NCBI RefSeq assembly: GCF_016342405.1
Contig: NZ_JAEINN010000004.1
Location: 62,001 to 126,000 of the forward strand
Source of the DNA: Maridesulfovibrio ferrireducens
GTDB taxonomy: Bacteria > Desulfobacterota > Desulfovibrionia > Desulfovibrionales > Desulfovibrionaceae
Direction: 5' to 3'
DNA: 64,000 nucleotides
The position numbers were made by a program, and so were the translations under genes. Of the stretch, positions 50,600-63,617 are shown in pieces (positions within the stretch are counted from its first letter, which is position 1; every line of letters begins with the position of its first letter). The notes under the pieces were generated by a model. The model saw nothing but the letters and a program-made list of their open reading frames with translations. It made no database searches and was not told the DNA's origin.

Positions 50600-51118
50600 A
50601 TGATCACACTTAGAAATAGCTCGCGCAAAATTATATTGTTTGCTGTCATTTTGGTGTTAGCTGTTTTCTTGGCGGGGTGCGGGAAGAAAACTGTCTCTAT
50701 TCCTCGTAGCGGTAGAATTATAAGTACAGAGGGTTCTTCCAAGAAAGGGAATTCTGTTGTCAGTGTTGTCCGCTCTCAGATAGGTAAACCCTACAAATGG
50801 GGAGGATCTTCTCCGGCAAAAGGTTTTGACTGTTCGGGGTTGGTCTGGTGGGTCTACAATCAGCATGGAGTGAGGATTCCACGTGTTTCGTGGCAGCAGA
50901 TTGATGCGGGAAAACCTGTTCATTTAAGTAGGATTAAGGCCGGAGATATAGTTTTCTTCAGAATTCCGGGTGGAGGTAAAAGTCTGCATACCGGTATTTA
51001 TACCGGGGATGGGAAATTTTTTGTGCATAGTCCTAAAAGTGGTCACTATGTCCGTGAAGAATCGATGAATAAGGCTTATTGGCGGAAGTATTTTATCGGC
51101 GCGCGCAGGGTTCTTTAA
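50600..51118 (+). CDS. NlpC/P60-family peptidoglycan hydrolase lipoprotein
   Basis: A 172-residue lipoprotein. The signal peptide ends in LAGC (Cys27). The NlpC/P60 domain carries the catalytic Cys78 in FDCSGLVWWVYN, His130 in SLHTGIY and His143 in FVHSP. Such enzymes cut peptide cross-links, usually between D-Glu and diaminopimelate. It is divergent from the ech operon, with about 290 bases between, and stands alone. Confidence 0.92.
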   Translation: MITLRNSSRKIILFAVILVLAVFLAGCGKKTVSIPRSGRIISTEGSSKKGNSVVSVVRSQIGKPYKWGGSSPAKGFDCSGLVWWVYNQHGVRIPRVSWQQIDAGKPVHLSRIKAGDIVFFRIPGGGKSLHTGIYTGDGKFFVHSPKSGHYVREESMNKAYWRKYFIGARRVL

Positions 51119-54024: not shown

Positions 54025-54067
54025 ATCACCCGGCTTTGACCTTTCAGCAAAGCCGGGTGATCTTTTT
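54025..54067 (+). terminator. Terminator of purB
   Basis: ATCACCCGGCTTTG and CAAAGCCGGGTGAT form a 14-base-pair stem with a nine-base loop, followed by CTTTTTT. Confidence 0.95.
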
Positions 54068-54234
54068 TGCAGGTCTTAGTTTTTCGTGCTAGTGTTTCAA
54101 AAAAAGTGTTGATTTATAGTTGCTTTAAGTTGTGAATCAATGTTTTTAGTGGTGTGAGTATGATTTTGAGTTGAGTGTGGATGATGCTTGCTTTTTACTC
54201 CGGTTATTCTGAACGATGGAGTCCTGGCTTTGGT

Positions 54235-55503
54235 ATGATGCATTTTTTAAGATTATTCTTTATAGTTATTATATTCAGTGCGAGCTTAAGCTCTTATTGT
54301 CTTGCCGGGGGGTGGACGCCTGTGCTGGAAAGTACTCCGCTTGTTCCCGGGGTGGTCGTTGCTGTTGATAAAGAATCTCAGAAGTTCCATCTTCTTGTTC
54401 ATAAAAGTCCTTTGCACGCTGAGCTTTCTTTTGACTGTGCTACGGGTAAAAAAGCCGGTGATAAAAAAGTTGAAGGAGACATGCGAACTCCTGAGGGCGT
54501 ATATTTTACTAAAGGTAAGCGAACTGGCTTAAAAGATTTTGAATTGTATGGAGATTTGGCTTTTCCTCTTGATTTTCCTAATCCGATTGATCGTATTAAT
54601 GGAAAAACGGGGTATGGAATATGGATACACGGGCGGGGCAAGCAGTTAGTAGCAATGGATACCCAAGGTTGTGTAGCTCTTGAAAATACAGATATAAATT
54701 TTATTGATTCTCGGATACGTTCAGGCACTCCGGTTGTTATTGGCGAGACCGTCTCGTGGGTAAATGCTACGGGAACGCAGGTAGTAGAATCTGCAGAACT
54801 TAAGACCCTGGTTAATAAGTGGGCTGCAGACTGGTCGAATAAAGATGACGGTTTTTTTGAAGCTTATTCAGATAAATTGTTCAGTAAAACTGAAAGCAGA
54901 CCTTTCAAATTTTTTAAAAATCGTAAAAAGAGAATTTTTTCCGATACATCGTGGATCGATGTTTCAGTTTTTAACTTAAAAGCTCTGCCCGGTCCTGATT
55001 ACTGGGTTACTTGGTTTGATCAGTATTATAGATCAGGCCGTCTTTCTTCTTCTACAGCTAAGAGACTGTATTGGCAGAAGATTGATGGAATTTGGAAAAT
55101 TGTGGGGCGGGAGTATGGCCCTGCTTCCAAATCTTTTGCAGATGAATATATTGCATCAAAAAGAAAAAGTGTTCTCGGATTTCTCGATAATTGGAGAACC
55201 TTCTGGCTTTCTGCTGATCTAGATCCCTATTCTGTTTTGTATGATTCTAATGCAAGGCAGGGAAATATACGCGGAATTAATGCGATTAAAGAACACAAAA
55301 AATCCATATGGACGGAAAAGAAGCCTTCCGTTGTTGAAATTAGTAAAGTGAGATTAAAAGAACATCCTGATGGGTTGGAAGTTGCCTTCAAGCAATTGTA
55401 TTCTGATGTTTCAGGTTATAGCGATTTTGGAAGTAAAAAATTAGTCATTCGTCCTGTGAATGGTGGATGGCGCATCGTTGATGAACAATGGAGCAGGCGC
55501 TAA
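54235..55503 (+). CDS. L,D-transpeptidase-fold enzyme with NTF2-like repeats, Csd6/Pgp2-like
   Basis: An exported protein of about 422 residues. After a signal peptide (MMHFLRLFFIVIIFSASLSSYCLA) comes a YkuD domain (about 38-165) with catalytic His132 in IWIHGRG and Cys146 in DTQGCVALEN. Two NTF2-like repeats follow (about 178-290 and 300-420), each ending in a GxWRIV/GIWKIV strand. This YkuD plus NTF2 order is that of Csd6/Pgp2, L,D-carboxypeptidases that trim peptidoglycan and set helical shape. The start is uncertain: the frame is open from a GTG at 54175, but the later ATG gives the better signal peptide. First gene of a four-gene operon. Confidence 0.8.
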   Translation: MMHFLRLFFIVIIFSASLSSYCLAGGWTPVLESTPLVPGVVVAVDKESQKFHLLVHKSPLHAELSFDCATGKKAGDKKVEGDMRTPEGVYFTKGKRTGLKDFELYGDLAFPLDFPNPIDRINGKTGYGIWIHGRGKQLVAMDTQGCVALENTDINFIDSRIRSGTPVVIGETVSWVNATGTQVVESAELKTLVNKWAADWSNKDDGFFEAYSDKLFSKTESRPFKFFKNRKKRIFSDTSWIDVSVFNLKALPGPDYWVTWFDQYYRSGRLSSSTAKRLYWQKIDGIWKIVGREYGPASKSFADEYIASKRKSVLGFLDNWRTFWLSADLDPYSVLYDSNARQGNIRGINAIKEHKKSIWTEKKPSVVEISKVRLKEHPDGLEVAFKQLYSDVSGYSDFGSKKLVIRPVNGGWRIVDEQWSRR

Positions 55504-56207
55504 TGGGCAATACCAAGTACAATGTTCTTTTTATGCGGGATGATGATACCGTTAAACGGTACAGGCTCAGTCCGTTCTGGCTGGGAGTTTTTGTTTGGTT
55601 TATTGTTTTATTGGCAGCGTGCGCCAGTGTCGGGGCATGGTCTGGATATAAATTTTGGAATCAAAATGTGGAACTTCGTCAGGATAAGCTGGAATTGCAG
55701 AAAACCCTTAATGAAGCTTCTGTTCAGCTTGAGCGGTTGGAAAATGTAAATAAAATTTTAGATTCCTATGATCCCAATGAAGTACAATCTCTTTTAGCTT
55801 CCGTACCCGTGGAAGAAAAGAAAGTCGAACCTGCTCCTCTTACTGATCTAAAAAAATTACTTTTTTACAAAAATCTTATGCGCGCCGGAGTTGAAAATGT
55901 GAAACTCCGTTATTCAGGAGGGAGTCTTGCGTTGAGCTTTGACCTGAATAATTTGCAAACCTCCTCCTCGCTTAGCGGATCCGCAAAGGTTGAGCTTATC
56001 GGGAGTAACGGCAAAGGGGAGCATATCAAGGCAAATTCTAATGATATGTCTTTCCATATACAAAGATTCAAAGTTGTCAGAACAAGATTCGCAATGCCTT
56101 CCGGGATGTCTTTAAAAGACATGTACGGCCTTCGTTTGATGATAAGCACCACTAATAATGAGTTAATATTCAGTGAAGTATATCCTCTGTCGCGTATTTT
56201 TAATTAG
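55503..56207 (+). CDS. Single-pass membrane protein with coiled coil, cell-shape operon
   Basis: A 234-residue protein I cannot assign. It has a short cytoplasmic start (GNTKYNVLFMRDDDTVKRYRLSP), one membrane helix (about 26-48), a coiled coil (about 52-95: ELRQDKLELQKTLNEASVQLERLENVNK) and a beta-rich periplasmic domain. The start shares its A with the previous stop (TAATG), and its end overlaps the next gene by 35 bases, so it is tightly coupled to the two peptidoglycan enzymes. The layout resembles bitopic scaffold proteins that organise such enzymes. Confidence 0.72.
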   Translation: MGNTKYNVLFMRDDDTVKRYRLSPFWLGVFVWFIVLLAACASVGAWSGYKFWNQNVELRQDKLELQKTLNEASVQLERLENVNKILDSYDPNEVQSLLASVPVEEKKVEPAPLTDLKKLLFYKNLMRAGVENVKLRYSGGSLALSFDLNNLQTSSSLSGSAKVELIGSNGKGEHIKANSNDMSFHIQRFKVVRTRFAMPSGMSLKDMYGLRLMISTTNNELIFSEVYPLSRIFN

Positions 56208-57915
56208 CCTTTTTACGCTAATTTTTGCAGTGTCCCCCGCACAGGCTCAGCATGTGCGTAGTTATACTTTTTTTCAGGGAACACAGTATCCCTTACGTGT
56301 TACATGGGTTTTCGGAGATGAGCCCGGACCGACTATTATGGTTCAGGGCGGAGTTCAGGGGGATGAACTTTCCGGATTTTTCACAGGACAGCTGCTGACC
56401 CGCTGTAAGCTTCGCAAGGGTAACTTGATTATTATTCCGCGTGCAAATGAACCTTCAATTCTTCGCCGCGCCCGCCAGATAAATGTGGATCTCAACAGAA
56501 GATTCGATAAAGAATACAATAATTTTTATGAGGATCGTCTTGCCAAGGCAATCCGTTTCCTGCTCGATGATGCTGATGGTTTTATCCATTTACATGAAGG
56601 TAGCGGTTTCTATAATCCTAAATATATCAGTAGTATGAGAAATCCAAAGCGTTATGGTCAGTCAATGATCATTGATGCGGCAGTATACAAAAATATTCCG
56701 CTTGCTGATTTGTGTCAGCGTGCAATTGATAGTCTTAATTCCAAAATTCCCAATAAATCATATTGGTTTACACTTTTTAATACCGATACTTTTGATAAAG
56801 CTACCCATTATCCTGAGATGTTGAAATCCCTGACTTGCTATGCTCTTGTTGAACGTGGAATTCCGGCCATGGCTGTCGAAGTAAGCAAAGATATCATGGA
56901 TCTTGAATGGAAAGTTCGTCAGCAACTGAAGGCCACTGTTTATTTACTTGAGGAATTTGGATTAGAAGTTGAAATTCCAGAATTTTCATTTCCTGCCGAA
57001 GGTAAAAATACCGGCCTAAAAATAATGATCAACGGCAGTCCTCTCTCGGGGAAGAGTGTAAATCTTGTGAGAGGCGGTCCTGTTTCCACTTCCGGTCAGA
57101 GTGATGTTATGACTGATTTGGCTTTGGAGCCTGCTGTAGCTGTGTATGCGAGTGACCGTCCAAATCTTAATCTTTTGACTGCGCCTCGCATGGCATTGTC
57201 ATCGTTTCCCGCTCTTGAAGTTAGCCTTGACGGTAGTAAGATGACAACCACCAAAGTTCGCTGGACCGGACAAAATGAAAATTCACCGGAACCGCACGGT
57301 CCTGTTTTTTTGTGCTGGCTCAACGGTGACCCTCATTTTGTGTCTGCTTCAGGCATTCTTAGTGTTTTGGAAGGGGATCAGTTCATTATTGAAGGAGTTC
57401 TCGGGAGCAATAGAGAAGAAGTACTTAATTTAAAAGGATTTGTTGCCTCGACGATGGTTAACAGCGGGCAGGATGTCGGGCATGAAATTATTATAGAACC
57501 TTCCAATTTTATGGATAAATACAAGCTTAAAAGTGATGATGGCGGAGCTCGCTATAGGATAGCCAGAGAGACTCCGGGTAAGCACAGGGCAGAGTTTTAC
57601 CTTTCAGTTTTTCCGCGTGTAGTAAAAGCTCTTGAGTTCAGCCGCACGCATGGCCCTGATATGCTTGTAAAATGGGAAAGCGATGCTGTCCGTGAAGTTC
57701 CTGCGGATCGTTATGTGCTTAATGAAGCTTGGAGCAACGGAAAACTTGATAAAATTCAACCTTTCATTGATCGTATTCCTATTTCATGGGGTGAATCTTT
57801 TGATGTTGAACCTGGAAAAGACGTGAAGATAACTCTTCGCCATTCAACAACATTTGAACCTGTCGGCGGTATGATCTTCAGAGGGGCATCTCTGTTACAG
57901 ACTTCATTGGATTGA
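56173..57915 (+). CDS. M14/M99 metallopeptidase, Csd4/Pgp1-like D,L-carboxypeptidase
   Basis: A 580-residue exported zinc peptidase. It starts at a GTG and has a signal peptide (LISLFTLIFAVSPAQA). Instead of the HxxE of ordinary M14 enzymes it has QGDE (Gln62, Glu65), the variant zinc ligand set of Csd4, with His141 in IHLHEGSGFY and the general base Glu236 in AMAVEVSKD. Csd4/Pgp1 cut the terminal diaminopimelate from peptidoglycan tripeptides and give curved or helical shape. The C-terminal 310 residues are beta-rich and longer than in Csd4. Third gene of the operon. Confidence 0.82.
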   Translation: MKYILCRVFLISLFTLIFAVSPAQAQHVRSYTFFQGTQYPLRVTWVFGDEPGPTIMVQGGVQGDELSGFFTGQLLTRCKLRKGNLIIIPRANEPSILRRARQINVDLNRRFDKEYNNFYEDRLAKAIRFLLDDADGFIHLHEGSGFYNPKYISSMRNPKRYGQSMIIDAAVYKNIPLADLCQRAIDSLNSKIPNKSYWFTLFNTDTFDKATHYPEMLKSLTCYALVERGIPAMAVEVSKDIMDLEWKVRQQLKATVYLLEEFGLEVEIPEFSFPAEGKNTGLKIMINGSPLSGKSVNLVRGGPVSTSGQSDVMTDLALEPAVAVYASDRPNLNLLTAPRMALSSFPALEVSLDGSKMTTTKVRWTGQNENSPEPHGPVFLCWLNGDPHFVSASGILSVLEGDQFIIEGVLGSNREEVLNLKGFVASTMVNSGQDVGHEIIIEPSNFMDKYKLKSDDGGARYRIARETPGKHRAEFYLSVFPRVVKALEFSRTHGPDMLVKWESDAVREVPADRYVLNEAWSNGKLDKIQPFIDRIPISWGESFDVEPGKDVKITLRHSTTFEPVGGMIFRGASLLQTSLD

Positions 57916-57946
57916 TTTTAGAAAACCGCATGTTAACCTGTTAAAT

Positions 57947-58768
57947 ATGGGTAATGATATGAAAGCTGTACCTGAAAATTGTTATGTTAATCTTCCTCTT
58001 TTATATATCTATAATCAGCCTGAGTATTTAGATTTATTTATAGAGAAATCAATTCAGCCTGAACTTGGGCTTGATTGTTTTGGAAATGAATGTGTTAGCA
58101 AAGACTGGTTGCAATCTATCAGTGATCGGCTTGCAAATGCGGGACTTAAGTGCACCGTACATCTCCCTTTTCTGGATTTGAAACCAGCCAGCCTAAATTC
58201 TGCTATCAGGCAGGCATCTATTGATACTTTATGCGGAGCTTTCGAACTCGCAAAAATATTTTCTCCGGAAAGGATGGTGATGCATCCCTCCTTTACTTCG
58301 TGGCTTGAAGAGCCTCTTTTTGAAGTGTCCTATAAAAATTGTTTGGAAGGTATTAGGCAGTTGAGTGATTCATGGCCTGATCATCCTGTGCTTTGTCTCG
58401 AAAATACTTACGAGTATGATCCCGGTCCGCTTTTACGAATTGTGGAAGATTTGGACCGCGATAATGTGGGTATATGTTTTGATGCAGGGCATTGGCATTC
58501 TTTTTCTAAGGGATCGGAGAAGAAAGATTTTGATTTCTGGTTTGATTCCTTTGCACCATATATCAAACACTTACATCTGCATGATAATAATGGCGTTAAA
58601 GATGAGCATCTCGCCTTGGGGTATGGAACTATGGACTGGGAACATATTATTTCCCGTGTGAAAGAGTTAGACCCTTTGCCTTCAATGACTCTTGAACCTC
58701 ATAATCGTGACGATTTCGAACTAAGCCTGAAATATTTTCAGGAAAAAATAATTCCCCAATTGCTTTAG
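57947..58768 (+). CDS. Sugar phosphate isomerase/epimerase-like TIM barrel
   Basis: A 273-residue protein of the xylose isomerase-like / AP endonuclease 2 barrel family. Candidate metal ligands lie in MVMHPSF, LCLENTYEYD, ICFDAGHWHSF, HLHLHDNNG and MTLEPHN, which is the usual His/Glu/Asp distribution. The reaction is unknown. It follows the Csd4-like gene by about 30 bases and precedes the operon terminator, but its link to cell-wall work is not evident. Confidence 0.85.
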   Translation: MGNDMKAVPENCYVNLPLLYIYNQPEYLDLFIEKSIQPELGLDCFGNECVSKDWLQSISDRLANAGLKCTVHLPFLDLKPASLNSAIRQASIDTLCGAFELAKIFSPERMVMHPSFTSWLEEPLFEVSYKNCLEGIRQLSDSWPDHPVLCLENTYEYDPGPLLRIVEDLDRDNVGICFDAGHWHSFSKGSEKKDFDFWFDSFAPYIKHLHLHDNNGVKDEHLALGYGTMDWEHIISRVKELDPLPSMTLEPHNRDDFELSLKYFQEKIIPQLL

Positions 58769-58794: not shown

Positions 58795-58835
58795 CAAAAA
58801 AGGTTCCCGGACAATCTGTCCGGGAACCTTTTTTT
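58795..58835. terminator. Strong terminator of the cell-shape operon
   Basis: AAAAAAGGTTCCCGGACA and TGTCCGGGAACCTTTTTTT form a near-perfect stem around a three-base loop. Confidence 0.95.
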
Positions 58836-59108
58836 AGGTAGGTATTCCATCAAACTTACATGGAAATTAGTTTTAGAATACCATCAATTATACTCAATAA
58901 ATTATTGCTGATAGCTTGTAAATATCAGACTTTTAGTGGCTATATTTATAATTAATGAGGTCGTATACAATGATTTGTACGAAAATAAAACATATTAATT
59001 CGGTCTGTGTTTGGTTAAAGTTGTAAATCTTTTAACTGTATTCTTTGTATAATAAATATGGTTAGTTGTGTTGATAATATTTGTTTTAAATATGCCGGAG
59101 GAAGAAGA

Positions 59109-61079
59109 GTGTTAATCGTAGGCGTTGATACAGGCGGAACTTTCACAGATTTTATCTATAAAGATGGCAATTCATGGGGCGTACATAAGCGTCTTTCAAC
59201 TCCTCACGACCCTTCTGAATCTGTAATTAATGGTCTTAAGTATATTGCAGGTGACCGCCGCGTGCAGGTTGTGCATGGATCAACTGTCGCAACAAATGCA
59301 ATACTTGAACGCAAAGGCGTTAAGACTGCCCTTATTAGTAATGAAGGATTTGAAGATATAGTTCAGATAGGGCGCCAGAATCGTTCGGAACTTTATAATC
59401 TGTCATTTTGTAAGAAACCGCATATTGTTCCGCCTGAATTAAGATTCGGGATTACAGGAAGAATTGATCATAATGGAAATGAAGTAGAGTCTTTTTCTGA
59501 AGATAATGTTCAAAATATTCTTAAAATAATCAAGGGTTCAGACGTTGAATCTGTCGCAATCTGTCTTCTTTTTTCATATTTAAATCCAGAACATGAGAAC
59601 AGAATGCGTTCTTTACTTTCTGAAATTGATATTCCTGTTTCGGTTTCGCATGAAATTTTAGCAGAGTTTCGTGAATTTGAACGCACATCAACTACGGTTA
59701 TTAACGCGTATGTTTCACCGAAAATGACCCGTTACCTAACGTTGCTTCAAGATTTTCTTGATGGATATTCATTACGGATTATGCAGAGTAACGGCGGGTC
59801 GATCTCAGCTGAAACGGCTATGAATGAGTCCGTAAGGACGATCTTGTCCGGCCCTGCCGGGGGAGCTGTCGGCGCACATGTCATAGGTAAAATGGCTGGG
59901 TATCATAAGCTTATTACCTTTGATATGGGGGGCACTTCGTCTGATGTTGCACTCATAAACGGTGAACTGCCTTTGACTCTTGAATCTGCGATAGAAGATT
60001 ATCCTGTTAAAGTTCCCATGATCGACATCCACACGGTCGGCGCAGGAGGCGGTTCTATTGCCCGTATTGATGCCGGAGGTTCGCTGACTGTCGGGCCTGA
60101 AAGTGCCGGAGCTGATCCCGGTCCTATCTGTTATGGTAAGGGCAGTGAAATTACGGTTACAGATGCCAATTTATATCTCGGAAGACTTATCCCCGACCGT
60201 TTTCTAGGCGGCGAAATGTCGCTTAAGACTGATAAGTTGAATGGTGCAATGGAAAGAATGGCTGCGGAGGCTGGTCTCAGTCCCGTTGAACTTGCGGAAG
60301 GAATTCTTGATATCGCCAACACTAATATGGAACGCGCGATCAGAGTTATTTCAGTTGAACGCGGTTACGATCCTCGTGAATTTACCATGTTTGCATTCGG
60401 CGGAGCGGGTGGAATGCATTGTGCTTTTCTTGCAAAGATGCTGTCGATTCCGAAGCTGTTTATTCCGAATAATCCAGGTATTCTTTCAGCCGTAGGCATG
60501 GTTATGGCTGATGTGATAAAGGATTACTCGCTGACGGTTATGCGTAATCAACATAATACCACTGCGGATGATCTTGAGAATTTGTTTGCTCCACTTGAAG
60601 ATCAGGGGCGTGCGGCACTTGAAGATGAAGGGTTCGCATCGCAGGATATAACTGTCGAACGATTTTTGGATATGCGCTATCAAGGGCAGTCTTTTGAGAT
60701 AATTGTGCCTTTTGACGTTGACTGGATTGAAGAATTCTCCCAGCTTCACGAACATAATTACGGCTATCGTAATGATGCTAAAACCGTAGAAATAGTCAAC
60801 ATCAGGCTTAGAACGAGGGGAATGCCGACTAAACCGGAATTCCCTGAAGCCGCTGAACTTACAGCGAAGATGCCGGATGATGCTGTAATAGGGACAACCG
60901 AAACGGTTTTTGATTCTATATTTATGAAAACCCGCATTCTGGATAGAGAGAAGCTTCTGCCCGGTAACAAGATTGATGGGCCTGCAATCATTATTGAATA
61001 CAGCTCCACTTTAGTTATTCCGCCTTTCGCAAAAGGTGAAGTTGATGCTTACGGCAATCTAATTTTTGATATTGAGTAA
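59109..61079 (+). CDS. hyuA: Hydantoinase/oxoprolinase family protein, subunit A
   Basis: A 656-residue ATP-binding subunit of the HyuA family. The start LIVGVDTGGTFTDFIYKDG is the actin-like phosphate 1 motif, VHGSTVATNAIL and TFDMGGTSSDVALI follow. Together with HyuB it forms an ATP-dependent amidohydrolase for cyclic amides such as hydantoins or 5-oxoproline. I chose the GTG at 59109, eight bases after GGAGG; the frame runs back to 59058 without a ribosome site. HyuB follows after 18 bases. Confidence 0.93.
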   Translation: MLIVGVDTGGTFTDFIYKDGNSWGVHKRLSTPHDPSESVINGLKYIAGDRRVQVVHGSTVATNAILERKGVKTALISNEGFEDIVQIGRQNRSELYNLSFCKKPHIVPPELRFGITGRIDHNGNEVESFSEDNVQNILKIIKGSDVESVAICLLFSYLNPEHENRMRSLLSEIDIPVSVSHEILAEFREFERTSTTVINAYVSPKMTRYLTLLQDFLDGYSLRIMQSNGGSISAETAMNESVRTILSGPAGGAVGAHVIGKMAGYHKLITFDMGGTSSDVALINGELPLTLESAIEDYPVKVPMIDIHTVGAGGGSIARIDAGGSLTVGPESAGADPGPICYGKGSEITVTDANLYLGRLIPDRFLGGEMSLKTDKLNGAMERMAAEAGLSPVELAEGILDIANTNMERAIRVISVERGYDPREFTMFAFGGAGGMHCAFLAKMLSIPKLFIPNNPGILSAVGMVMADVIKDYSLTVMRNQHNTTADDLENLFAPLEDQGRAALEDEGFASQDITVERFLDMRYQGQSFEIIVPFDVDWIEEFSQLHEHNYGYRNDAKTVEIVNIRLRTRGMPTKPEFPEAAELTAKMPDDAVIGTTETVFDSIFMKTRILDREKLLPGNKIDGPAIIIEYSSTLVIPPFAKGEVDAYGNLIFDIE

Positions 61080-61097
61080 TCCGGGAGGTATATAAAA

Positions 61098-62660
61098 ATG
61101 AATGTGAATCCAATCCTCCTAGAGGTGTTTAAAAACAGGTTTGCGGCAATTTCCGAAGAAATGGGTGTAACGCTCACAAGAACTGCTTTTTCTCCCAATA
61201 TAAAAGAAAGACGTGATCTTTCCTGCGCGGTTTTTGACAGCAAAGGCGATATGATCGCACAGGCGGCCCATATTCCTGTTCATTTAGGTTCCATGCCTCT
61301 TTCGGTTAAAAGTGCCATAGATAATGTCACGTTTACTGAAGGCGACATGGTTATGCTTAATGATCCGTTCAAAGGCGGAACTCATCTGCCCGACATAACT
61401 CTCGTAGCTCCTGTCTTTTTCAGCGGTTCAGATAACCCTGATTTTTATGTTGCTAACCGTGCCCATCATTCTGATGTGGGTGGTATGGCGAGTGGTTCTA
61501 TGCCCCTTTCCACTACACTTTATCAGGAAGGAATCATCATTCCACCTATTAAGATTGTTGAGAAGGGTGAAATCGTTAAATCCGTGATGGCTTTAATTTT
61601 AAACAATGTACGCACTCCTGATGAGCGTGAGGGTGATTTTTCCGCGCAAATCATGGCAAATATTACAGGCGTACGCAGGTTGAACGAGCTTATTTCAAAA
61701 TACGGGCTTGAGACTGTCGATTTTTATGCAGCAAGTCTTAATGATTATGCTGAAAAAATTACACGCCACACAATTGAATTCATTCCTGACGGTGTTTACA
61801 AATTTACTGATTACATGGACGGCGATGGCATGGATTGCTTTAATGTGCCCATCAGTGTGATTTTAGAAGTGAAGGGAGATACGGCAAAGCTTGATTTCAC
61901 AGCTTCCGGTGATCAGGTCACAGGCAGCGTTAATGCTGTCCGCTCAATTACGCTTTCGGCAGTGCTTTATGTTTTTCGTTCACTTATAGAAGGGGACGTA
62001 CCAACCAACGCGGGTATTCTTCGTCCTCTCGAAATAATCACTCGCAAAGGTTCTATTCTTGATGCAAATTTCCCTGCCGCAGTCGCAGGCGGCAATGTCG
62101 AAACTTCCCAGCGGGTTGTGGATGTTGTTTTAGGTGCGCTGGCAGAAGCCATTCCGCAGAGAATTCCCGCTGCCAGTCAGGGAACGATGAACAACATGAC
62201 CATCGGCGGTATGGATGAACGCACGGGCAAACCTTTTGCCTATTACGAGACACTAGCCGGAGGTATGGGCGGTTCCGTATCCTGTCGAGGTGAGCATGCG
62301 GTCCATTCACACATGACCAATACACTTAATACACCCGTGGAAGCTCTTGAGTATAGCTATCCGTTTCGCGTAAAGACTTACTGCGTGCGTAAAAACACTG
62401 GCGGAAAGGGGCAGTTCCCCGGTGGTGACGGTCTTGTGCGTGAGATTGAATTATTATCGAGTTGTGAAATAACAGTACTTTCCGAGCGCAGAACGAATGC
62501 TCCGTACGGTTTGCAAGGTGGCGGAAACGGTACGCCTGGTCGCAATGTTCTCATTAGTGCTGGTAAGGAAATCGAGAAGCCCGGTAAGTTTCACACGCCG
62601 CTCAAAAAGGGCGATATTATACGCATAGAAACTCCGGGCGGAGGCGGCTGGGGGAAGTAG
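61098..62660 (+). CDS. hyuB: Hydantoinase/oxoprolinase family protein, subunit B
   Basis: A 520-residue HyuB subunit. ERRDLSCAVFDSKGDMIAQAAHIPVHLGSMP, MLNDPFKGGTHLPDITLV (likely metal ligands) and NRAHHSDVGG are classic, as is the Gly-rich end ETPGGGGWGK. GGGAGG sits ten bases ahead of the ATG. It completes the enzyme with HyuA; the substrate is undefined. Confidence 0.94.
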   Translation: MNVNPILLEVFKNRFAAISEEMGVTLTRTAFSPNIKERRDLSCAVFDSKGDMIAQAAHIPVHLGSMPLSVKSAIDNVTFTEGDMVMLNDPFKGGTHLPDITLVAPVFFSGSDNPDFYVANRAHHSDVGGMASGSMPLSTTLYQEGIIIPPIKIVEKGEIVKSVMALILNNVRTPDEREGDFSAQIMANITGVRRLNELISKYGLETVDFYAASLNDYAEKITRHTIEFIPDGVYKFTDYMDGDGMDCFNVPISVILEVKGDTAKLDFTASGDQVTGSVNAVRSITLSAVLYVFRSLIEGDVPTNAGILRPLEIITRKGSILDANFPAAVAGGNVETSQRVVDVVLGALAEAIPQRIPAASQGTMNNMTIGGMDERTGKPFAYYETLAGGMGGSVSCRGEHAVHSHMTNTLNTPVEALEYSYPFRVKTYCVRKNTGGKGQFPGGDGLVREIELLSSCEITVLSERRTNAPYGLQGGGNGTPGRNVLISAGKEIEKPGKFHTPLKKGDIIRIETPGGGGWGK

Positions 62661-62831: not shown

Positions 62832-63617
62832 ATGAAAAATATATTTAGTAAAGCGATAGTCAGAACTCCGGCTCATAATTTGGGACATGGTTTGACCGAG
62901 GCAGGACTCGGTTGTCCTGATATGGAACTTACTCATGTTCAGCACCGGAATTATATAAAATATTTCGAGAGCAAAGGAATTGCGGTGACGGTTCTTGATG
63001 CGGTGGAGGATTTTCCTGATTCGGTTTTTGTCGAAGATACGGCTGTAATGATACCTATAGATGGCGGAGTTGCGGCCTTTTTGACTTGTCCGGGGGCGAA
63101 GTCCCGTCGCGGAGAAGTGGAAAGGATTAAGCCTGTTCTCGCGTCGACAGCTGATGAAATTTTTCAGATGGAAGGGGACGGACTCATGGAGGGCGGTGAT
63201 ATCCTGCTCATGGGGAATATTTTTTTTGTGGGTATAGATTCGCGTACTAATTATGCCGGATTTGAGCAGTTTGAAAAAGTTGCTCGTAAATTCGGTTATA
63301 AATGTGTTCCTGTTCCGTTTGATAACGGAATGCCGCATCTTAAGACTGAATTGTCCACTCTGGATGATGAAACTCTTATTATGAGCAACCGTTTTTCCAT
63401 GCGGGATGAGTTCTCAGGGTATAGAAGGATGGTTGTTCCCACTGGAGAGGAATATGCCGCCAATTGCTTATATATGGGTAATTGCTTGCTGGCCCCGGCA
63501 GGTTTCCCTGCCTCAGCTGAAATGCTTGATAAAAACGGGTTCAGTCCCGACTATATTGATATGTCGGAATTCAGAAAGATGGACGGTGGACTGACCTGCC
63601 TCTCGTTGCGTTGGTAG
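62832..63617 (+). CDS. Dimethylarginine dimethylaminohydrolase (DDAH)-family enzyme
   Basis: A 261-residue guanidino-group modifying enzyme. Substrate-binding residues lie in FPDSVFVEDTAVM (about 61-73), the GDGLMEGGDILL loop follows, His169 is in GMPHLKT and the catalytic Cys256 is in GGLTCLSLRW at the C-terminus. DDAH turns methylated arginine into citrulline and methylamines; some relatives act on other guanidines or amidines. The ribosome site is the GGAGG of the repeat element just upstream. It converges with the last gene of the window. Confidence 0.9.
   Translation: MKNIFSKAIVRTPAHNLGHGLTEAGLGCPDMELTHVQHRNYIKYFESKGIAVTVLDAVEDFPDSVFVEDTAVMIPIDGGVAAFLTCPGAKSRRGEVERIKPVLASTADEIFQMEGDGLMEGGDILLMGNIFFVGIDSRTNYAGFEQFEKVARKFGYKCVPVPFDNGMPHLKTELSTLDDETLIMSNRFSMRDEFSGYRRMVVPTGEEYAANCLYMGNCLLAPAGFPASAEMLDKNGFSPDYIDMSEFRKMDGGLTCLSLRW

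Follow-up and report, generated by a model that had tools for sequence, protein, structure and literature searches.

In Helicobacter pylori and Campylobacter jejuni, peptidoglycan tetrapeptides are trimmed to tripeptides by Csd6/Pgp2 and tripeptides to dipeptides by Csd4/Pgp1, and mutants are straight (published work is cited throughout from excerpts). The pgp1 and pgp2 genes lie within 300 bp of each other in Nitratiruptor, Nautilia, Persephonella and a deltaproteobacterium, and pgp1 occurs mainly in curved or helical bacteria (Frirdich et al. 2014, PMC3961634). Csd5, an accessory protein of the H. pylori shape programme, has been proposed to localise Csd4 and Csd6, and csd5 mutants are reported to be straight although their bulk muropeptides are unaltered. 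In Bdellovibrio, a Y274A mutant of the enzyme Bd1075 and a truncated form without Trp303 show faulty targeting to the convex cell face and do not restore curvature; the NTF2 domains of other L,D-carboxypeptidases are said to stop short of this residue and to lack Trp303, and the authors state that no mechanism is known for the one-sided placement (PMC8938487). Here we describe a related locus in a 64,000-nucleotide stretch of the Maridesulfovibrio ferrireducens genome (contig NZ_JAEINN010000004.1, positions 62,001 to 126,000, forward strand), the whole of which is called the window below. Four genes, named A to D, lie directly 3' of purB on the plus strand (window 54235-58768), and A, B and C are, with a probability of roughly 0.6, the Desulfovibrionaceae version of a peptide-trimming cell-curvature system that would bend the rod. 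Both reactions and the shape effect are proposed by analogy with Csd6/Pgp2/Bd1075 and Csd4/Pgp1.

The two enzymes and the protein between them

The three genes of main concern and their domains are as follows, in window coordinates.

54235..55503, plus strand: gene A, 422 amino acids, with a signal peptide (predicted by eye), a YkuD domain and two NTF2-like domains
54355..54741, plus strand: YkuD domain of A (Pfam YkuD, E = 2.2e-14), with His132 and Cys146 (numbered from the ATG at 54235)
54802..55104, plus strand: first NTF2-like (Cds6_C) domain of A, with the equivalent of Bd1075 Tyr274 retained
55150..55500 (boundary approximate), plus strand: second NTF2-like domain of A, with Trp at the position of Bd1075 Trp303 in 16 of 16 aligned homologues
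55503..56207, plus strand: gene B, a bitopic protein with an N-terminal hairpin, a membrane span/coil helix, a linker and an Ig-like beta domain
55575..55649, plus strand: membrane span of B (by eye, about residues 30-54 of the 239-residue frame counted from 55488), a hydrophobic stretch in helix 29-93
55884..56186, plus strand: Ig-like beta-sandwich domain of B (predicted model, residues 133-233 of the 239-residue frame)
56173..57915, plus strand: gene C, 580 amino acids, GTG start, an M99 (Csd4/Pgp1-type) peptidase with an N-terminal signal-like helix
56320..56970, plus strand: M99 catalytic domain of C, residues 50-266

Gene A matches the Pfam family Cds6_C over two stretches (1.6e-26, 93.2 bits against a cut-off of 27), and its best solved relatives are Bd1075 (7o21, 9.5e-27), Pgp2 (6xj6, 2.1e-23) and Csd6 (4xzz, 5e-22), the next, 8ikr, being far weaker (1.2e-4). 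In an alignment with Bd1075, His132 and Cys146 fall on its catalytic His141 and Cys156; this alignment and the Pfam matches agree with an earlier note, made from the sequence alone, which had described A as a YkuD protein with NTF2-like repeats and these two residues. Among 16 A homologues, the Tyr274 position holds Tyr in every first NTF2 domain and Tyr (13) or Phe (3) in the second, while the Trp303 position, invariant in the second domain as listed above, is aromatic in 14 of 16 first domains. An ATG is found at the place of 54235 in 15 of 16 loci of the genus; a longer GTG frame of A begins at 54175.

The same note had assigned C to the M99 peptidases on Gln62, Glu65, His141 and Glu236, and these residues do align with Gln46, Glu49, His128 and Glu222 of Csd4, the closest solved relative (2.8e-24; 1.7e-39 in a profile search). 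C matches Peptidase_M99 (PF17033) at 1.5e-31 and 110.3 bits against a cut-off of 27, as do 19 of 19 aligned members of its family at that model. Of 15 metal, oxyanion, general-base and substrate residues of Csd4 (as named in PMC4220969), 13 are identical in C, the altered two being Gly131 to Ser144 and Trp148 to Tyr161. Csd4 is also the first structural match of the C model (mean predicted local distance difference test score, pLDDT, 82.0) by Foldseek (1.1e-22) and by VIA, the latter with Z 24.8 over 345 residues spanning 40-480 of C and a root-mean-square deviation of 15.5 Å over several domains. Outside the catalytic domain, where Csd4 has a central beta-barrel and an Ig-like C-terminal domain, no sequence match of C was found, and beyond residue 480 the model predicts an additional beta region. 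C is the sole M99 protein detected in its own genome. Judged by their residues, it is likely that A and C share the trimming chemistry of the Csd6/Csd4 system. The family assignments made in the note hold for both enzymes, and trimming in sequence, from tetra- to tri- to dipeptide, is the best interpretation.

The M99 proteins of the Desulfovibrionaceae fall into two classes. In a tree of the catalytic domain only, obtained by a short search, the in-operon class forms one separate clade (Shimodaira-Hasegawa-like approximate likelihood ratio test, SH-aLRT, 100), and the H. pylori Csd4 domain groups, on a long branch, with a class encoded elsewhere in Desulfovibrionaceae genomes (the unlinked class). 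C thus falls outside the M99 clade of Csd4 and is not its orthologue in the narrow sense. Among 199 genomes of the family, 82 carry the high-scoring, unlinked class and 81 only other M99 proteins, with genes of both score ranges in one genome (G099). Where the places of both genes were listed, M99 of the unlinked class was adjacent to B in 0 of 52 genomes and M99 of the in-operon class in 68 of 71, the three exceptions being G166, G111 and G005. C is thus to be regarded as an M99 enzyme that is not the nearest relative of Csd4, and the two classes seem to substitute for each other.

Two observations on M99 genes may be recorded here. Genome G061 has a second M99 gene of the in-operon class (L186:4110-6260) on a different contig from the operon. 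Unlinked M99 genes lie near genes resembling dnaX, ybaB and recR (by eye) at three loci from three genera (L053, L054, L055), and the neighbours of the unlinked genes showed no clear theme beyond these genes in some loci.

Gene B starts at the ATG at 55503, which is preceded by GGAG at 55490 and overlaps the stop codon of A as TAATG; either TAATG or TGATG stands at this junction in 15 of 16 loci of the genus. In 2 of the 16 an in-frame TAG follows the upstream ATG, which excludes the start at 55488 adopted in the earlier note. The claim of a bitopic protein whose frame overlaps both neighbours stands in so far as B is bitopic and overlaps C by about 35 nucleotides, but its overlap with A is a single nucleotide; the overlap with C is kept across the loci of the genus. 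In the B model (mean pLDDT 87.8) a short N-terminal hairpin is followed by a single helix (29-93), a weakly predicted linker and the beta domain. The coiled coil of the note would correspond to the part of this helix into which the membrane span continues, span and coil being predicted as one. Charges flanking the span suggest that the N-terminus is cytoplasmic. The beta domain is of a common Ig-like type (best Z 11.3), and its Foldseek and VIA matches are generic beta-sandwich folds.

The window B protein matched no Pfam family above cut-off. With 35 aligned B proteins, scattered weak hits to 22 families were obtained at E 0.1, each in at most 4 of the 35 and none below 3e-4. Csd5 carries an SH3 domain; no SH3 family was among the 22. 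Homology with DUF6776 (PF20567) was set aside as weak (1 of 35 B proteins, E 0.0089), as was homology with FtsB, whose best profile match (E 0.018) is confined to the helix region. The scaffold role that the note gave to B is tentative. Since B lies directly 3' of A wherever both are present in the loci examined, and unlinked M99 genes are not adjacent, any partner of B would first of all be A. The second NTF2 domain as an obligate partner of B was rejected, because A homologues of other phyla match over their full length without an adjacent B.

Gene order and co-occurrence with flagellin and bactofilin

Presence was scored as a match at E 0.001 in draft genomes of varying quality. Within the 199 Desulfovibrionaceae genomes A (as Cds6_C) was found in 169, B in 160, a figure that may lack some undetected cases in divergent genera, and M99 in 163. 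All three occur together in 152 genomes, every one of which has flagellin. At 32 loci (L072-L103), among which the order purB-A-B recurs, A is followed by B in 27 and by B and C in 16; in one of the five loci without B after A the contig ends inside A. D lies downstream in many loci, including loci without C. A further 48 loci (L104-L151) comprise 8 titled as Mailhella or Desulfovibrionaceae and 40 others. At 17 of the 40, among them loci of Balneatrix, Pokkaliibacter, Deferribacteraceae, Thermodesulfovibrio and a number of candidate phyla, an M99 gene of the other class stands directly after A or A-B; the B-like proteins of the 40 loci are weak matches. Six loci came from other families of the order, with A-B-C-D in families f2 and f4 and A-C-D without B in f3. 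As the same gene order is found in the family and beyond, the arrangement is not due to chance.

Flagellin was detected in 175 of the 199 genomes and bactofilin in 172. Bactofilin is a shape-cytoskeleton protein in other bacteria. Co-occurrence was counted in 148 genomes of good quality, a set given as 149 by the search tool, from which three with none of the markers (G184, G191, G197) had been left out, and A was counted as absent where Cds6_C had no match. M99 and flagellin were found together in 128, M99 alone in 1, flagellin alone in 5 and neither in 14. The corresponding counts are 131, 0, 2 and 15 for A, and 129, 1, 4 and 14 for B. Fourteen of the 15 good genomes without flagellin lack A, B and M99, G064 being the exception, and bactofilin is gone in 13 of the 15 together with M99 and B. 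Presence and absence are split within genera g40 and g42, and in the case of B within g7 as well; multiplying the within-genus chances for B gives 6.5e-5, for three genera only and with genomes taken as independent. The five good flagellated genomes without M99 are G004, G046, G047, G124 and G162. G162 (L175, L176), which has A and no match for B, M99 or bactofilin, is a candidate motile straight rod.

Outside the family, 150 genomes of the order contained M99 in 90 cases and flagellin in 130. No M99 match was found in any of 16 flagellated genomes of g55, the genus of Desulfomicrobium baculatum, or in any of 8 of g48. D. baculatum forms short rods with a single polar flagellum (PMC3035215). 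Desulfohalobium retbaense, described as straight to slightly curved and motile, and Thermodesulfomicrobium WS likewise gave no M99 match. By contrast, M99 is present in ten flagellated genomes from outside the family. The flagellated genomes without M99 show that flagella do not require it. Equal presence in straight rods, named in the earlier note as a finding that would speak against a role in shape, is not seen for M99, which is absent in D. baculatum and was the one gene of the set searched there. The co-distribution with flagellin and the flagellated rod genus without M99 fit a shape that serves swimming.

Boundaries of the unit and neighbouring genes

The remaining features of the unit are two terminators and gene D.

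54025..54061, plus strand: intrinsic terminator 3' of purB, a hairpin followed by CTTTTTT (RNA fold -24.7 kcal/mol, z -6.9)
57947..58768, plus strand: gene D, a CbiR-like AP_endonuc_2 TIM barrel, which closes the gene series
58796..58834, no strand assigned: closing terminator, a perfect hairpin of 18 bp that has T runs on each strand (z -6.7)

Because hairpins with T runs follow both purB and D, A-B-C-D is a single terminator-bounded unit; membership of purB is ruled out by the terminator between it and A. The three-gene operon of the earlier note is right in its genes and their order, while the range given for it (54235-58768) ends with a fourth gene of the same unit. D scores 95.6 bits with the CbiR-like model, below the cut-off of 105, and travels with A-B or A-B-C in many relatives. 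A promoter scan of the region was not used, as its 17 candidates were no clear excess over shuffled sequences (13.1, standard deviation 3.8).

The same strand also encodes, a few kb 5' of the unit, an NlpC/P60 protein that is a possible wall hydrolase (window 50600-51118). Past the closing terminator lie a hydantoinase A/B pair (window 59058-62660), for which the best NCBIfam models, under cut-off, are caprolactamase subunits, and a protein resembling DDAH/arginine deiminase (window 62832-63617). Linkage of the operon to bactofilin or M23 genes was not found: the single bactofilin place of the genome and its four M23 places all lie on contigs other than that of the window.

Proposed role and comparison with known systems

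The presence of the operon in most of the family and its tendency to vanish with flagella suggest that it probably bends the cell for swimming. In the proposed sequence of events, A would be exported and take D-Ala off uncross-linked tetrapeptides, its NTF2 domains binding peptidoglycan and so setting where it acts, and C, exported as well, would remove meso-diaminopimelic acid (mDAP) from the resulting tripeptide to leave a dipeptide. B would be anchored in the inner membrane and expose its Ig-like domain to the periplasm. Its synthesis would keep pace with that of A and C, and by way of the NTF2 domains it would hold or position A on one side of the cell. Uneven local trimming would then bend the rod, and the bend would aid swimming of the flagellated cell. 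The part of B as a positioning partner is tentative, drawing on gene order, the interlocked frames and a remnant of the locus in Lawsonia. Tentative as well is a more novel reading, that B and the tandem NTF2 domains of A form a spatial-cue module. In it B would fasten the NTF2 pair, as the reader of the wall, to the inner membrane along one side and thereby confine trimming to that side; the module could outlive the enzymes, as in Lawsonia.

A number of observations weigh against this account. Lawsonia intracellularis, for which descriptions give irregularly curved cells, or curved or rod-shaped ones, has no M99 match in strain PHE/MN1-00 (G047), and its A gene, the single A-profile match of the genome, has no YkuD domain and retains both NTF2 domains (31.8% identity, 2e-40), with B following (L177:4603-6440). 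Pseudodesulfovibrio pelocollis (G004, L072) has purB-A-B and no M99 match; for its genus as a whole, vibrios or curved rods are described (PMC11505543). G046 has A and B, again with no M99 match. From Lawsonia and P. pelocollis it follows either that curvature does not in every case depend on M99 or that these species curve in some other way. G064 (91% complete) has B and M99 and no flagellin match, flagellin was likewise not matched in two M99-bearing genomes outside the family (G227 and G263, 84 and 82% complete), and eight flagellated genomes of family f5 gave no M99 match. Several flagellin-less genomes retain a shorter A-like YkuD protein, in some cases beside purB. The A profile covers it only to about residue 300 (YkuD and one NTF2 region) in four g42 genomes and in G073, none of which gave a match for B or M99; the genes of G073 and of G115 (Mailhella, g42) adjoin purB. 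Some loci (L086, L095, L185) have A-C without B. Co-loss with flagella can reflect general reduction in host-associated lineages, and a literature search found no muropeptide or shape data on these genes. The earlier note had held that the operon sets the vibrioid shape of this organism. Homology, near-universality in the family, co-loss with flagellin and bactofilin and the M99-less rod genus favour this indirectly, and Lawsonia and P. pelocollis speak against it.

That the enzymes serve the flagellum instead of shape, by remodelling the wall around the motor or through an effect on flagellin modification, would account for the strong co-distribution with flagellin in the family, and Csd6 has been reported to affect flagellin glycosylation, its NTF2 domain being proposed as a deglycosylase. 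Such a role is nevertheless improbable given the 24 flagellated genomes of g55 and g48 without M99, the loss of bactofilin along with the A-B-M99 trio, and the retention in C of the Csd4 substrate residues. General peptidoglycan maintenance without a role in shape, with A forming 3-3 cross-links or attaching or detaching envelope proteins and C trimming debris, would not be expected of genes that disappear repeatedly with flagella and bactofilin, and the closest relatives are carboxypeptidases with shape phenotypes. We consider it unlikely, even though A is the sole YkuD protein detected in its genome and matches the DpaA model weakly, at 26 bits where the cut-off is 365, and Lawsonia is described as curved without the enzymes.

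Lawsonia, with its NTF2 pair and B and neither catalytic domain, also speaks for a reading in which B is no scaffold for trimming and forms, with the NTF2 domains of A, a separate envelope module, for example in elongation or division, that shares the operon. B stays by A when M99 is elsewhere, and it has the weak similarity to FtsB mentioned above. Against this stand the joint absence of B and M99 from 14 of the 15 good genomes without flagellin and the interlocking of its frame with those of A and C, and we regard a separate module as doubtful. If the operon does curve cells, a large family of environmental and gut bacteria shares the trimming mechanism of Helicobacter, Campylobacter and Bdellovibrio, and the conserved third protein may explain how trimming is confined to one side; a spatial-cue module, if real, would explain in molecular terms how curvature enzymes come to be placed on one side. 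Natural test cases are Desulfomicrobium, a rod without M99, Lawsonia, with its NTF2 pair and B, and the non-flagellated lineages without the set.

No published account of the operon in Desulfovibrio, or of how sulfate-reducing vibrios curve, was found in the literature search. For the vibrioid Solidesulfovibrio magneticus RS-1, curvature-dependent placement of an actin-like protein has been described in work on magnetosomes, with no curvature gene of this strain named in the excerpts (PMC12713370). The Solidesulfovibrio loci examined here have A, B and D, and no C next to B. Compared with the systems introduced at the outset, A resembles Bd1075 in being a predicted secreted YkuD-NTF2 protein with the catalytic His and Cys and a completed NTF2 end that holds the Tyr274 and Trp303 positions. 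However, Bd1075 has one NTF2 domain and A has two, with the Trp invariant in the second, and the excerpts on Bd1075 mention neither an M99 partner gene nor a B-like gene. With Csd6/Pgp2, A shares the YkuD domain of L,D-carboxypeptidase type, an NTF2 domain and a place one step before a D,L-carboxypeptidase, whereas Csd6/Pgp2 is described as having a single NTF2 domain that ends before the Trp303 position. The phmmer alignment of A with Csd6 begins at residue 100 of the Csd6 chain, and upstream of its YkuD match A has the signal peptide and about 20 residues, which would leave little room for the N-terminal dimerisation domain of Csd6.

C is like Csd4/Pgp1 in its QxxE...H metal motif, Glu general base and mDAP-binding residues, with the three-domain Csd4 as best structural match, and unlike it in having a sequence match in the catalytic domain only, an extra C-terminal beta region and a separate M99 clade. 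B differs from Csd5 in its modelled Ig-like domain and in giving no SH3 match. In the known pgp1-pgp2 pairs the two enzymes are close together as here, and the excerpts mention no third protein between them. The linkage of the two enzymes is therefore already known; apparently new, against the literature found, are the third protein, the doubled NTF2 domain, the pair of interchangeable M99 classes and the loss shared with flagella and bactofilin.

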